Source: a bacterium BMS3Bbin05 (lineage in GTDB: Bacteria; Nitrospirota; Thermodesulfovibrionia; Thermodesulfovibrionales; BMS3Bbin05). Taken from it: a DNA stretch of 55,793 nucleotides. Where the stretch lies: NCBI GenBank assembly GCA_002897855.1, contig BDTO01000016.1, positions 1-55,793 on the forward strand, given 5' to 3'. Below, one piece after another: positions 3,152-55,676 of the stretch (positions are counted from its first letter, which is position 1; each line of letters begins with the position of its first letter). The notes beneath the pieces were generated by a model. It did not search any database. It had not been told where the DNA came from and was given only the letters and a program-made list of their open reading frames with translations. The position numbers and the translations under genes were made by a program.

Positions 3152-3297
3152 TCAAATGGATAGCGAACGTATTCCCCGTGGTCTTTCCACGGGGTGGAGT
3201 GAGCGAATATAATAATAAAATCTTCCCTGCATTAGATTACCGGTGGCCTGCCTGTGCGTGCCGCACGCAGACAGGCGGAGCCACCGGAAAGATCAAC
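3152..3297 (+). repeat. dispersed repeat R2, copy 2, with extra nested hairpins
   Basis: This is the same family as 292-386 but longer. Two additional hairpins are present: CCCCGTGG-TCTTT-CCACGGGG replaces the GAGCGGAA segment, and a GC-rich hairpin (CTGCCTGTGCGT paired with ACGCAGACAGG) sits in the loop of the GTGGC/GAGCCAC stem. An open reading frame of 94 codons crosses the repeat but has no coding character. Confidence 0.7.
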
Positions 3298-4523: not shown

Positions 4524-4549
4524 AGAGTCTGTTAATAAAGACAGACTCT
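4524..4549. repeat. minimal (end-only) copy of the 143-bp palindromic element
   Basis: AGAGTCTGT - TAATAAAG - ACAGACTCT is a perfect 9-bp stem made of the two terminal repeats of the neighbouring element with the whole interior missing. It sits four bases before the full copy at 4554. It looks like an internal deletion product or a nested insertion. Confidence 0.65.
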
Positions 4550-4553
4550 AAAT

Positions 4554-4697
4554 AGAGTCTGTGTATAAAGTAAGTCTCTTTATCTGTCATTCCGGCAGTC
4601 CTTAAGCCGGAATCTATTCTTTTCTATAAGTTCTGAATGTCCCGAACGCTTTCAGGACATGACAAAAATAAAAAACGGCAATTTATACACAGACTCT
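4554..4697 (+). repeat. 143-bp palindromic element R1, copy 1
   Basis: The terminal inverted repeats are AGAGTCTGTGTATAAA / TTTATACACAGACTCT. Inner hairpin one is TTCCGGC/GCCGGAA (4590-4612); inner hairpin two is ATGTCC/GGACAT (4637-4660). An A-rich segment precedes the right end. Full copies also lie at 9198, 31671, 52310 and 55318. No coding capacity or transposase is present, so it resembles a MITE or REPIN-like element mobilised in trans. Confidence 0.85.
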
Positions 4698-4796
4698 AAG
4701 TAATGGGAAATGACAAAAGGAAAACAGTTTTATTGACCAGGTGAGAAATTAATTCCCTAAAATCGGATAAATTTGGCACAGCCCATTAAAGATGAA

Positions 4797-9047: not shown

Positions 9048-9088
9048 CGGGGTCTGAACTTCATGCGAATCCGGATTCCCGGGTTTTT

Positions 9089-9192
9089 TTAACCCCGCAT
9101 TATTCATGAACCGGGTGCCATGCAGACGCCGGACATGCGGATTTTCACCACATCCGCCGTCCTCAGCAATAGCTTACGAATTATCAGGACTA
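9089..9192 (+). repeat. dispersed repeat R3, copy 1
   Basis: A ~104-bp block starting TTAACCCCGCATTATTCATG and ending ACGAATTATCAGGAC matches 11599-11703 on the same strand. The ends form an imperfect inverted repeat in the second copy, and an inner hairpin CGGAT/ATCCG is kept in both. It is directly followed by an R1 element. The 343-base gap between hisE and the next gene is filled almost entirely by these two repeats. Confidence 0.7.
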
Positions 9193-9197
9193 TAATT

Positions 9198-9341
9198 AGA
9201 GTCTGTCCATAAAGTCAGTCTCTCTATCTGTCATTCCGGCAGTCCTTAAGCCGGAATCCAATCTTTTCAATAAGTTCTGAATGTCTCGAAAGCGTTCGGG
9301 GCATGACAAAAATAAAAAATGGCAATTTATGGACAGACTCT
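9198..9341 (+). repeat. 143-bp palindromic element R1, copy 2
   Basis: The layout is as in the 4554 copy, but the ends read AGAGTCTGTCCATAAA / TTTATGGACAGACTCT. The GT-to-CC change on the left is matched by AC-to-GG on the right, preserving the stem. The stem extends outward into flanking ATAATT on both sides, giving a 22-bp perfect inverted repeat. Inner hairpin two is TGTCTCGAA/TTCGGGGCA. Confidence 0.85.
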
Positions 9342-9390
9342 AATTATCTAACCTGCTTTCGGACTTATTGATGCAAAACGGTTTTTAAGA

Positions 9391-11573: not shown

Positions 11574-11598
11574 AAATCGTTAATTCATGGTGAACCAT

Positions 11599-11703
11599 TT
11601 AACCCTGCATTATTCATGAAGCGGGTGCCGGGCGGATGCCGGAGATGCGGATTATCACCACATCCGACGTTCGCAGTGATGGTTTATGAATTATCCGGGT
11701 TAA
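11599..11703 (+). repeat. dispersed repeat R3, copy 2
   Basis: The 105-bp element has ends TTAACCCTGCATTATTCATGAA and TTATGAATTATCCGGGTTAA forming an imperfect inverted repeat. It contains the hairpin CGGAT-TATCACCAC-ATCCG. It is similar across its length to 9089-9192 and lies between the TPM and lemA genes. Confidence 0.7.
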
Positions 11704-16822: not shown

Positions 16823-17599
16823 ATGGATAAAATAAATAATATTAAACTGCTCACAGAATACGACGGGACCGCGTACATAGGGTGGCAGGTCCAGCCTAAT
16901 GGCAGAAGTGTCCAGGGAGTCATTGAGGATAAACTCAGGAAGATCGCCCCGGACAGCACCGGACTGATAGCTGCCGGAAGGACGGATGCAGGTGTTCATG
17001 CACTTCGGCAGGTAGCCTGCTTCAGATCTTCGGTCAAACATCCTCCGGACACAATTAAACGGGCTCTCAATGCATTACTTCCACGGGATATCAAGATAGT
17101 CGGTGCCGGGTATTGCAATCAGTCTTTTCATCCGCGATTTGACGCAAAGAAAAAGACTTATACATATGTAATTTATAGCGGCAGGAATGCCTCTCCATTC
17201 ATTTACAGGTATGTATGGCGCGTTAATCAGAAATTAAATATTCACAGGATGAAGATGGCATCGGCATTTCTTACAGGGAAACACGACTTTTCTTCATTCC
17301 GGGCTTCGGGTTGCGCATCCGGAAACCCCGTCAGGGAGATAATGTCATTAGCTATTAAAAAAACGAAAACAATAAATTTCCTGGATTTTAAAATAGAGGG
17401 AGCTTTTGTAATCATCGACATAGAGGCAAATGCATTTCTTCGTCATATGGTGAGAAATATAGTTGGGACTCTTGTCCAGACGGGAACGGGAAGATCAATG
17501 CCTGAAGACGTAAAAAAAATCCTGTCGGCCAGAGACAGGACTGTTGCAGGACCAACAGCCCCGGCGTCGGGTTTATTCTTAAAGAAAATCTATTATTAA
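16823..17599 (+). CDS. truA: tRNA pseudouridine(38-40) synthase
   Basis: This 258-residue enzyme isomerises uridines 38-40 in the tRNA anticodon stem. The catalytic Asp is D55 in AAGRTDAGVHAL. Other family landmarks are LLTEYDGTAYIGWQ at the start and AFLRHMVRNIVGTL near residue 210. Length is normal. It starts 64 bases after the transferase gene and converges on the DksA-like gene with a 4-base gap and no obvious terminator between them. Confidence 0.97.
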   Translation: MDKINNIKLLTEYDGTAYIGWQVQPNGRSVQGVIEDKLRKIAPDSTGLIAAGRTDAGVHALRQVACFRSSVKHPPDTIKRALNALLPRDIKIVGAGYCNQSFHPRFDAKKKTYTYVIYSGRNASPFIYRYVWRVNQKLNIHRMKMASAFLTGKHDFSSFRASGCASGNPVREIMSLAIKKTKTINFLDFKIEGAFVIIDIEANAFLRHMVRNIVGTLVQTGTGRSMPEDVKKILSARDRTVAGPTAPASGLFLKKIYY

Positions 17600-26441: not shown

Positions 26442-26526
26442 ATTGATCTTCCCTGTGGCTCCGCCACCGGTAATCTAATGCAGGGAATTTTGCATTATTA
26501 TATTCGCTCACTTCCGCTCGCTATTC
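26442..26526 (-). repeat. dispersed repeat R2, copy 3
   Basis: This is a reverse-orientation copy of the 292-386 repeat: GATCTTCC, GTGGCTCCGCCACCGGTAATCT, TGCATTATTATATTCGCTCA and CGCTATTCATT. It ends just before the stop codon of the minus-strand methyltransferase gene and so lies in that gene's 3' region. Confidence 0.75.
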
Positions 26527-26528
26527 AT

Positions 26529-27317
26529 TTAATTTCTATTGGAAAATTCATAAAAAATCAGGGCCGAGGCAATTGCCACATTAAGGCTCTCGGCTTTTCC
26601 AGGCATATCAATCCGGAAGAGTTCATCGGCTTTTTTCTTTAAAAAGCTATCTGCACCGGCCGACTCATTACCCAGCACAACCGAATATATTCCCTTATAC
26701 GTTATTTTATCGACAGTCTTCTTTGCCCTGGAGTCGGACACAAGGATCCTGATCCCTTTTCCCATGGCCCAGTTCACAAAGTCAGCTGGCGATGTTTTTG
26801 CAATGTTAAGGTTGAAAAGACTTCCCGCAGATGACCTGATCACTTTCTGGTTCGATGTGCTGCATGATCCATCGAGAACAACCATGTTTATTATCCCGAA
26901 TGCATCTGCAGTCCTTATTATGGTTCCCAGATTCCCGGGGTCCTGTATCCCGTCGATAACGGGGATTATCGAGGACATGGACATGTCCAATTCACTTAAG
27001 CTCTTTAATTTATACTCAACAACTGCAAATATTCCCTGCGGCACTACCGTATCTGAAAGTCTCTTCGCAACTTTATGGCTTATTTTGATAATATTTGAGC
27101 GGGAATGAATCAATGATTGAACTTTTTCACTCTGTCTTTCCATAAGATCTTCCGCGACCAGGAGTTCCATTACAGGATGTCCGGAGTTTACAGCAGTCTC
27201 GACAACCCTGAGGCCTTCGACGAGCAGTAAATTGTCCGATGCCTTCCCATTGCGCATGTTGATCAGCTCTTTAACCTTGCTGTTTGAAGGACTTCCGATA
27301 ACTTTCATTCTTTTCAT
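26529..27317 (-). CDS. SpoU/TrmH-family RNA 2'-O-methyltransferase
   Basis: The 262-residue protein has an N-terminal substrate-binding domain (about 1-100; LLLVEGLRVVETAV) and a C-terminal SPOUT knot. The three family motifs are visible: GIQDPGNLGTIIRTADAFG, VVLGNESAGAD and IDMPGKAESLNVAIAS. It methylates 2'-OH of rRNA or tRNA using S-adenosylmethionine; the exact target is unknown. The start is uncertain between codons 1 and 4. Repeat R2 abuts the 3' end. Confidence 0.93.
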   Translation of the reverse strand: MKRMKVIGSPSNSKVKELINMRNGKASDNLLLVEGLRVVETAVNSGHPVMELLVAEDLMERQSEKVQSLIHSRSNIIKISHKVAKRLSDTVVPQGIFAVVEYKLKSLSELDMSMSSIIPVIDGIQDPGNLGTIIRTADAFGIINMVVLDGSCSTSNQKVIRSSAGSLFNLNIAKTSPADFVNWAMGKGIRILVSDSRAKKTVDKITYKGIYSVVLGNESAGADSFLKKKADELFRIDMPGKAESLNVAIASALIFYEFSNRN

Positions 27318-30801: not shown

Positions 30802-31668
30802 ATGGACATCGATGAAAAAATCAGACAGGCAGATGAGATTCTAACCGGATGTACGCTCTGTCCGAGGCGGTGTGGGGTCAACCGCAAGGCGGGAGAACAC
30901 GGTTTCTGCAGAACTGCCGATAAACTGATTGTGTCGAGTTGGGGACCTCATTTCGGTGAAGAAAGGCCTCTCGTCGGCAGGGGTGGTTCAGGAACCATAT
31001 TTTTTACGAACTGCAATCTTGGCTGTTTTTTTTGCCAGAACTACCCGGTTAGCCATCTTTCCGATGGAAGCGAAATGTCTGAAGACAAGTTGGCCTCGGT
31101 TATGATCGACCTCCAGAATATGGGATGCGAAAATATCAATTTAGTTACCCCGACGCATCAGGTACCCATGATCCTGAAGGCTTTAAAGATTGCCTTTAAT
31201 TGCGGTTTGCGATTACCTGTAGTATACAACAGCGGCGGTTATGAATCTGTTGATACACTGAAGATACTCCAGGGCGTGGTGGATATTTTTATGCCGGATT
31301 TCAAGTATGCAAATCCCAGGGTATCAGAGAAGTATTCACTCGCAAAAGATTATCCCGATATAGCAAAGGCTGCTCTCAAAGAAATGCACCGGCAGGTATC
31401 CGATCTCCTTATGAATGAGAGGGGCGTGGCTGTCCGGGGACTCCTGGTCCGTCACCTTGTCATGCCTCAGGGTATTGCAGGCACTGAAGAAGTGGTAAGA
31501 TTTATTGCAGAGGAGATATCCGTTAATACTTACCTCAACATAATGGATCAGTACCATCCATGTTATAAGGCATTCGAATATCCTGAAATAAGCCGGCGTA
31601 TCTCTGAAAGAGAATATAAGGATGCAATTAACTATGCTTTAAAGGCAGGGATCAAAAGGATTGATTAG
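30802..31668 (+). CDS. radical SAM protein, PflX-like (COG1313)
   Basis: The 288-residue protein resembles pyruvate-formate-lyase-activating enzyme homologues. A CTLCPRRCGVNR segment lies at the start, and the radical SAM cluster motif CNLGCFFCQN (CxxxCxxC) is near residue 74. Such proteins use a 4Fe-4S cluster and S-adenosylmethionine to generate a radical. The target is unknown, as no glycyl-radical enzyme lies nearby. The gene stands alone. An R1 palindromic element begins three bases after its stop codon. Confidence 0.87.
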   Translation: MDIDEKIRQADEILTGCTLCPRRCGVNRKAGEHGFCRTADKLIVSSWGPHFGEERPLVGRGGSGTIFFTNCNLGCFFCQNYPVSHLSDGSEMSEDKLASVMIDLQNMGCENINLVTPTHQVPMILKALKIAFNCGLRLPVVYNSGGYESVDTLKILQGVVDIFMPDFKYANPRVSEKYSLAKDYPDIAKAALKEMHRQVSDLLMNERGVAVRGLLVRHLVMPQGIAGTEEVVRFIAEEISVNTYLNIMDQYHPCYKAFEYPEISRRISEREYKDAINYALKAGIKRID

Positions 31669-31670
31669 AT

Positions 31671-31812
31671 AGCGTCTATGTATAAATTGCCATTTTTTAT
31701 TTTTGTCATGTCCCGAAAGCGTTCGGAGCATCCGCAACTTATTGAAAAGAATGGATTCCCCGACTAAGTCGGGAAATGACAGATAGAGAGACTGACTTTA
31801 TACACAGACTCT
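31671..31812 (-). repeat. 143-bp palindromic element R1, copy 3 (reverse orientation)
   Basis: The ends are AGCGTCTATGTATAAA and TTTATACACAGACTCT, less perfectly paired than in other copies. Inner hairpins are TGTCCCGAA/TTCGGAGCA and CCCGAC-TTA-GTCGGG. It lies directly after the PflX-like gene. Confidence 0.8.
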
Positions 31813-31880
31813 GAATACGGAATACCCTCTCCGGTAATTCTTCAACATGCGCTATGATGTTGTATGCGTATTATTTTAAT

Positions 31881-52284: not shown

Positions 52285-52309
52285 AAGCAAAGCCTCCTCA
52301 TCATTATAT

Positions 52310-52452
52310 AGTGTCTGTGTATAAGGTCAGCATCTCTATCTGTCATTTCCCGACTTAGTCGGGGAATCTATTCTTTTCTATAAGTTCCGGATGCCCGATT
52401 ACAGACTTCGGGCATGACAAAAATAAAAAACGGCAGTTTATACACAGACACT
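52310..52452 (+). repeat. 143-bp palindromic element R1, copy 4
   Basis: The ends read AGTGTCTGTGTATAA / TTATACACAGACACT: the GAGTC-to-GTGTC change is matched on the other side. Inner hairpins are CCCGAC-TTA-GTCGGG and TGCCCGA/TCGGGCA. It lies in the iorB-paaK2 gap inside the putative cluster. Confidence 0.85.
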
Positions 52453-52474
52453 ATTTATATATGGGACATACTGC

Positions 52475-55158: not shown

Positions 55159-55317
55159 AACAGAAATACCTCCGTTTTTCATTTATTCAACATGAATGTT
55201 TATTTGGGATTCCACGTCTTCAAACCTGCGGCCCGAATTCTATGCAATTTCGCAGGAATCAGGCCAGCATGCCAATAAAATACATTATCCCGGAATAGAG
55301 CTGAGAAAACATTATTT

Positions 55318-55459
55318 AGTGTCTGTGTATAAACTGCTGTTTTTTATTTGCGTCATGTCCCGAAAGCGTTCGGGACATCCGGAACTTATTGAAAAGAATG
55401 GATTCCCCGACTAAGTCGGGAAATGACAGATAGAGAGACTTACTTTATACACAGGCTCT
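55318..55459 (-). repeat. 143-bp palindromic element R1, copy 5 (reverse orientation)
   Basis: The ends are AGTGTCTGTGTATAAA and TTTATACACAGGCTCT with two mismatches. Inner hairpins are TGTCCCGAA/TTCGGGACA and CCCGAC-TTA-GTCGGG. It is the same orientation as the 31671 copy. The region from 55159 to 55317 holds no accepted gene. Confidence 0.85.
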
Positions 55460-55676
55460 ATTTAACTCTGCGGGGCACGGACAAAACGCTCTTGATCCTG
55501 ATAGCCTTCCGTTTCCTGCCTATGAGAAACTGCCCGGGTAGCCAAAGACATACCCATTACCGATATTTAATTCACCAATCACCGGCCCCAGCCTTTACCG
55601 GCAGGCTTTTCTTGTGCTATTCTTTAAAATAGCTTATTTATTATTTAGGTTCTTTCTCATTTCAAGTGGGTAAACT

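Follow-up and report, generated by a model that had tools for sequence, protein, structure and literature searches.

Palindromic elements in the window

The window, i.e. the whole analysed stretch of 55,793 nucleotides (contig BDTO01000016.1 of the Nitrospirota bacterium BMS3Bbin05), contains five full copies of a palindromic element (Table 1). They lie within 1-2 bp of the places named in an earlier note made from the sequence alone and, as stated there, occur in both orientations, the copies at 31671 and 55318 being on the minus strand. Two features that the note did not mention accompany them. TAWWTA-type target duplications flank the copies, with identical hexamers in two of the five cases and 1-2 mismatches in the other three. 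In addition, a 24-bp collapsed unit is joined to copy 1 by TAAATA, so that this copy belongs to an array; the collapsed unit is probably an internal-deletion derivative.

Table 1. Palindromic elements, target hexamers and collapsed unit in the window (element coordinates exclude the target hexamers)
Feature	Position	Strand	Remarks
Collapsed unit GAGTCTGT-TAATAAAG-ACAGACTC, 24 bp	4525..4548	.	sequence and repeat search
Copy 1 left target hexamer TAAATA	4549..4554	.	
MITE copy 1	4555..4696	+	ends 4555-4569 and 4682-4696; REP dimer core ~4584-4665
Copy 1 right target hexamer TAAGTA	4697..4702	.	1 mismatch to left
Copy 2 left target hexamer TAATTA	9193..9198	.	
MITE copy 2	9199..9340	+	both arms of the CC/GG variant
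Copy 2 right target hexamer TAATTA	9341..9346	.	same as left
Copy 3 left target hexamer TAGATA	31666..31671	.	
MITE copy 3	31672..31811	-	flanked by convergent radical-SAM and response-regulator genes
Copy 3 right target hexamer TGAATA	31812..31817	.	2 mismatches
Copy 4 left target hexamer TATATA	52305..52310	.	
MITE copy 4	52311..52451	+	co-directional neighbours: POR-type oxidoreductase subunit, AMP-binding ligase
Copy 4 right target hexamer TATTTA	52452..52457	.	1 mismatch
Copy 5 left target hexamer TATTTA	55313..55318	.	
MITE copy 5	55319..55458	-	
Copy 5 right target hexamer TATTTA	55459..55464	.	same as left

A second collapsed unit was seen in stretch L095 (near 17524-17553). Such units, of about 24-30 bp, retain little beyond the two ends, and each is linked to a full unit by TAAATA; they probably arose by deletion of the palindrome. 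The loop of the second hairpin reads GAAAGCGTTC in the 9198 copy, which is inverted relative to GAACGCTTTC in the 4554 copy.

Several other repeats share the window and the genome with these elements. A second REP family, TGTCATTCTGAA(N)TTCAGAATCT, is present at 142-230 of the window and at many places in the genome, free or dimeric and outside the ends described below; it forms a six-fold tandem run at C63:32975-33165 (L114). An interspersed repeat containing AGTGAGCGAATATAATAAT occupies 282-380, 3198-3247 and 26442-26540 of the window (91% identity over 99 bp). A 101-bp repeat (83% identity) lies at 9088-9188 and 11598-11698, and its first copy stops just before the 9199 element. A further family with GCGTATTCCCCGTGGCCTTGCCTGTCCCGACAAAGTCGGGGCCTGCCTGTGCG was found elsewhere in the genome (C36:39326, C8:19427-19469, C77:19256 and others).

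Ends, target duplication and insertion sites

Stretches of the BMS3Bbin05 genome totalling 1.166 Mb contained 102 paired units, a density that is biased upward since these stretches (~47% of the genome) are mostly contigs known to carry copies. The pattern of hexamer plus end has 200 exact matches in the whole 2.46-Mb assembly. The units measure 140-168 bp in 97 cases and 247-376 bp in the remaining five, and all of them are therefore too short for a transposase gene, as expected of MITEs. Each carries 15-bp terminal inverted repeats, GWGTCTGT(GT/CC)ATAAA, on both sides, and outside these lies the 6-bp target TAWWTA.

The flanking hexamers are identical at 46 of 76 insertion sites, each array being counted as one site, versus 14.6 expected when the right-hand hexamers were permuted (maximum of 27 in 20,000 trials). 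The asymmetric hexamers TAAATA and TATTTA form 32 direct pairs and a single inverted one, which indicates that the hexamer is a target duplication and not a continuation of the palindrome. Beyond the hexamer, the base profile of the targets reveals little preference. The unequal hexamers at about 40% of the sites count against a reading of the family as MITEs and have to be explained by mutation or rearrangement.

None of 77 insertion sites falls within an ORF of at least 130 aa, although such ORFs make up 80% of the sample. By gene context, 41 sites are co-directional, 15 convergent and 13 divergent, and when compared with the corresponding shares of intergenic length (62, 16 and 22%) no arrangement is clearly enriched. 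Two copies lie inside other repeats, uninterrupted copies of which run through a single hexamer; as only ~15 bp match on one side, this empty-site support is modest. The family is missing from the sole genome of the same genus, which was not syntenic at the one locus tried as an empty site. Among 177 genomes of the order, the TAWWTA plus end pattern is present in 42, and a search of viral contigs for the end pattern gave no match.

Mirrored changes and the fold

The earlier note had proposed that a change in one arm of the outer stem mostly has its mirror image in the other arm, and that the palindrome might be maintained by selection on its fold as DNA or RNA. The quoted examples, CC/GG in the 9198 copy and GTGTC/GACAC in the 52310 copy, do exist; nevertheless, mirrored changes are not typical of the family. 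When 52 copies were aligned, two-sided change was counted at 3 pairs of the outer and GTCAT/ATGAC stems combined. Shuffles gave 3.3 such pairs, and 441 of 500 reached the observed count; 93.3% of cells are paired, versus 92.9% in the shuffles. The two arms of the A/T end variant are uncorrelated in 99 copies (Fisher p 0.55). Left-arm CC occurs in 28 copies, and only 9 of these have the matching GG on the right. For the GT/CC variant there is a weak association between the arms (p 0.015 in 99 copies, uncorrected for relatedness), and relatedness alone could give such a value.

RNAalifold reports two-sided change in 2 of 29 pairs, both within a single inner hairpin, one for which two block alleles exist. 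The co-variation that had been noted in the inner stems is thus real in so far as alternative hairpin sequences exist, but the hairpins change as blocks, not by stepwise compensation. The first hairpin has two alleles and the second has two main alleles, and all four combinations occur, as expected from hairpin swapping and unlike stepwise compensation. Gene conversion between copies, which had been offered as the other possible cause, remains plausible for the inner hairpins, given these combinations, and for array units, given neighbours that are identical over one half (see below).

The five copies fold far better than dinucleotide shuffles (z from -5.0 to -9.8), and nearly all relatives have a palindromic payload, both of which would suit a structured cloverleaf or cruciform with a regulatory role, kept by compensatory mutation. 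The strong folding is nonetheless accounted for by two inverted ends plus two hairpins, and the arms stay complementary because each of them is a transposase end. As two-sided changes are no more frequent than in shuffles, arm variants are uncorrelated or weakly correlated, target duplications are present, no Rfam family matches the elements and no gene arrangement is clearly favoured, we regard a selected fold as very unlikely. With high confidence, as part of the MITE interpretation, we suggest that the palindrome reflects transposase binding sites and not a selected RNA fold.

The REP-dimer core

Between the ends lies a core of the form GTCAT[hairpin]ATC(C/T)...GGAT[hairpin]ATGAC, which corresponds to a head-to-head dimer of CGTC-type REP hairpins. 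The tag, the 8-9-bp stem with its A-T base and the head-to-head dimer fit the definition of CGTC REPs. The tail, CCA in that definition, is ATCCAG in most relatives and ATCTA or ATCCR, mostly CTA, in the BMS3Bbin05 genome. Elements framed by the same ends in relatives keep GTCAT/ATGAC-like core boundaries in 44 of 46 cases, with differing stems, which means that across the order the shell stays the same while the core changes; the clustering of payloads was too permissive for counting independent captures of a core. One framed element in genome G127 (L173, C1:1507-1638) has the same ends and a TAATTA duplication around a CACCCTC...GAGGGTG palindrome, which shows that cores other than a REP dimer occur. 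In the relative G014, four of five such REP dimers lack the ends.

Two further arrangements were observed. In L123 (C20:20001-40000), a framed element at C20:34199-34499 has an inner REP unit of ~56 bp repeated about three times. CGTC-type REP dimers also lie inside other inverted ends, e.g. CAGGCTGCTGAAAAA, in L074 (G057), L072 and L081 (G055) and L080 (G005), which suggests that other transposons carry such dimers too.

The match of the core to CGTC-type head-to-head dimers (PMC3733652), together with six Y1 transposase matches in the BMS3Bbin05 genome, raises the question of whether the element is a REPIN moved by a RAYT/TnpA-REP (Y1 HUH) transposase, to which the outer inverted repeats would be incidental. 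The boundaries and the 6-bp duplication, however, are at the outer ends, and HUH single-strand transposition yields no such duplication. In the flanking sequence retrieved for the six Y1 loci, up to 1.5 kb, neither these REPs nor the ends occur. Furthermore, the CGTC-type core is nearly confined to the ends or their remnants in this genome, in which another REP type is free; in the sampled half, the REP alleles of the element that occur outside the ends are almost solely end-linked remnants. A REPIN origin thus appears extremely improbable. Di Nocera et al. (2013, PMC3733652) could link no transposase to CGTC-tagged REPs; they reported that the CGTC dimers of one species regularly lie within a palindrome, as do GTAG dimers of other species.

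Tandem arrays

The sampled stretches contain 19 arrays of two to four units each. Every junction is a hexamer of the TAWWTA type, and at junctions with orientable neighbours the units have the same orientation in 24 of 24 cases. For 17 arrays, the junction hexamer is identical to one or both of the outer hexamers. The array at C57:32224 has TAATTA at both outer sides and TAAATA at both junctions, and that at C63:26647 has outer TAAATA hexamers and a TATTCA junction; both fit transposition of a ready-made array, although gene conversion between arrays might have had the same outcome.

Neighbours within arrays are more alike than random units, yet far from identical. Near-identity over one half only was seen in 4 of 23 neighbours, versus 3.7% of random pairs. 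Slippage (tandem duplication) was rejected as the sole source of arrays, since the neighbours are too different. Insertion into a duplicated hexamer was likewise rejected as the sole source, as it leaves the uniform orientation unexplained. It is possible that opposed neighbours were removed as unstable long palindromes, giving the fixed orientation.

Transposase and autonomous partner

The earlier note had inferred from the lack of a transposase within the elements that they are mobilised in trans, and had called for a search for a transposase with matching ends. Such an enzyme was found in relatives and not in the BMS3Bbin05 genome itself, and the same ends and duplication occur on insertion sequences (ISs) of those relatives; a non-autonomous element moved in trans is therefore supported. 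The partner search led from the end pattern in 177 genomes, through one end beside a transposase frame, to a protein query and 13 genomes.

An intact copy, a 1609-bp IS with GAGTCTGTTTATAAA at both ends and a 462-aa frame, lies on contig PMYY01000202.1 of a Nitrospiraceae MAG (G066), with one flank readable. Its transposase scores 361.1 bits against NF033593 transpos_ISNCY_1 (cut-off 325) and 42.5 bits against Pfam DDE_Tnp_1 (cut-off 23). Genome G161 has a 1607-bp copy with MITE-type ends and a broken frame, as well as a 756-bp deleted copy, both with TAAATA on each flank. Remnants adjoin the same ends in five further genomes (G059, G125, G004, G046 and G176), and in HyVt-268 a GTTTAT end variant is common to an IS end and a MITE.

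More distant sister ISs of the ISNCY family have the target duplications TAACTA and TAGCTA. Three Rhizobiaceae plasmid ISs annotated as ISNCY or ISRsp17 carry ends such as GTGCCCGTCCATAAA and GTTTCCGTCCATAAA and the duplications TAGCTA, TAGCTA and TAGCCTA. Their transposases are 37-38% identical to the partner enzyme, and for the ISRm17/ISRsp17-like ISs as a group the figure is about 37-39%.

In the BMS3Bbin05 genome, tblastn found no matching transposase. The sole match to the ISNCY_1 profile is a fragment on C13, which lacks these ends and cannot be aligned to the partner enzyme, and a PF01609 search found three DDE genes, none with these ends. A search of 1.17 Mb for a long pair of ends enclosing a gene paired only neighbouring MITEs. 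It seems that this genome has no matching transposase; as the assembly is 93% complete, the enzyme may be lost or unassembled.

A site-specific tyrosine recombinase, for which TAWWTA would be the 6-bp overlap flanked by inverted arms, might be suggested by the array junction TTTATACACAGACTC-TAAATA-GAGTCTGTGTATAAA, which resembles a 15-6-15 core site, and by the single orientation of all arrays, but isolated target sites have no arms beyond the hexamer and the enzyme encoded by the full-length ISs that share these ends and the duplication is a DDE transposase, so this is hardly credible.

Interpretation

Taken together, the palindromes are very probably MITEs that belong to the ISNCY group and have a REP dimer as their core, and whose partner enzyme is encoded elsewhere. 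From the ends and duplications, we infer that an ISNCY enzyme moves them. A DDE transposase of the NF033593 group (ISRm17/ISRsp17-like) would bind the 15-bp ends and, cutting a TAWWTA target with a 6-bp stagger, insert the element there, so that the hexamer would stand on both sides. The palindrome would exist because the same binding site is present at both ends. Relatives also have CGTC-type REP dimers that are not framed by such ends. The shell therefore probably acquired one of these, after which shell and dimer would have multiplied as one unit in the BMS3Bbin05 genome. The block alleles suggest that copies recombine and exchange hairpins. Arrays of the unit-TAWWTA-unit type may arise at or beside the duplicated hexamer, and some may later have been moved en bloc by their outermost ends.

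More tentatively, and with a fair measure of doubt, one may picture a two-layer mobile element, in which a shell for a DDE transposase (ends plus TAWWTA) holds an exchangeable fold-back core. CGTC-type REP dimers would then have spread as cargo of this shell in the order, the core may confer an advantage in that its hairpins draw the two ends towards each other, and arrays of fixed orientation would be transposed as a block.

Bacterial MITEs such as ERIC, Correia, RUP and Nezha are short, gene-free, high-copy intergenic elements with terminal inverted repeats and a fixed-length target duplication, which are mobilised in trans. The family described here is like them in those traits, with probable mobilisation in trans, but differs in its 6-bp TAWWTA duplication, its ISNCY partner, its exchangeable REP-dimer core and its same-orientation arrays. 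The ISRm17/ISRsp17-like ISs (ISNCY, NF033593) resemble it in their ends (GTGCCCGTCCATAAA/GTTTCCGTCCATAAA versus GWGTCTGT(GT/CC)ATAAA) and in their target duplication (TAGCTA, in one copy TAGCCTA, versus TAWWTA). They are, however, autonomous elements of 1.66 kb, whereas the present family consists of gene-free copies of 140-146 bp, bears REP hairpins and belongs to another phylum. In a REPIN, two inverted REPs form one replicating unit (Bertels and Rainey 2011, PMC3116915), and the arrangement here is the same, except that on this evidence a DDE transposase, in place of a RAYT, would act at the outer ends. A literature search on Nitrospirota MITEs found no paper. As far as the literature searched shows, MITEs of this kind are known, and the combination of REP core and arrays, as well as the route for CGTC-type REPs, is new.

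With the CGTC-REP dimers (PMC3733652) the family has in common the TGTC/CGTC tag, the A-T stem base, the head-to-head arrangement and, in most relatives, the CCA-like tail. In H. neapolitanus every CGTC-1 dimer lies within a palindrome, and palindromes without a dimer were found neither in that species (PMC3733652) nor in the family studied here. The latter differs in that its tail is mostly CTA in the BMS3Bbin05 genome, its stems and loops are more variable, and the palindrome around it is formed by transposon ends, for which both a target duplication and the transposase family are known.

Long palindromes with seemingly mirrored changes can thus be transposase ends rather than selected folds, which calls for caution. 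For Di Nocera et al. (PMC3733652) the spread of CGTC-type REPs was an open question, and they noted dimers inside unexplained palindromes. As the enclosing palindrome here consists of ISNCY ends with a 6-bp duplication, it offers a concrete means of spread, open to testing, for some CGTC dimers at least.
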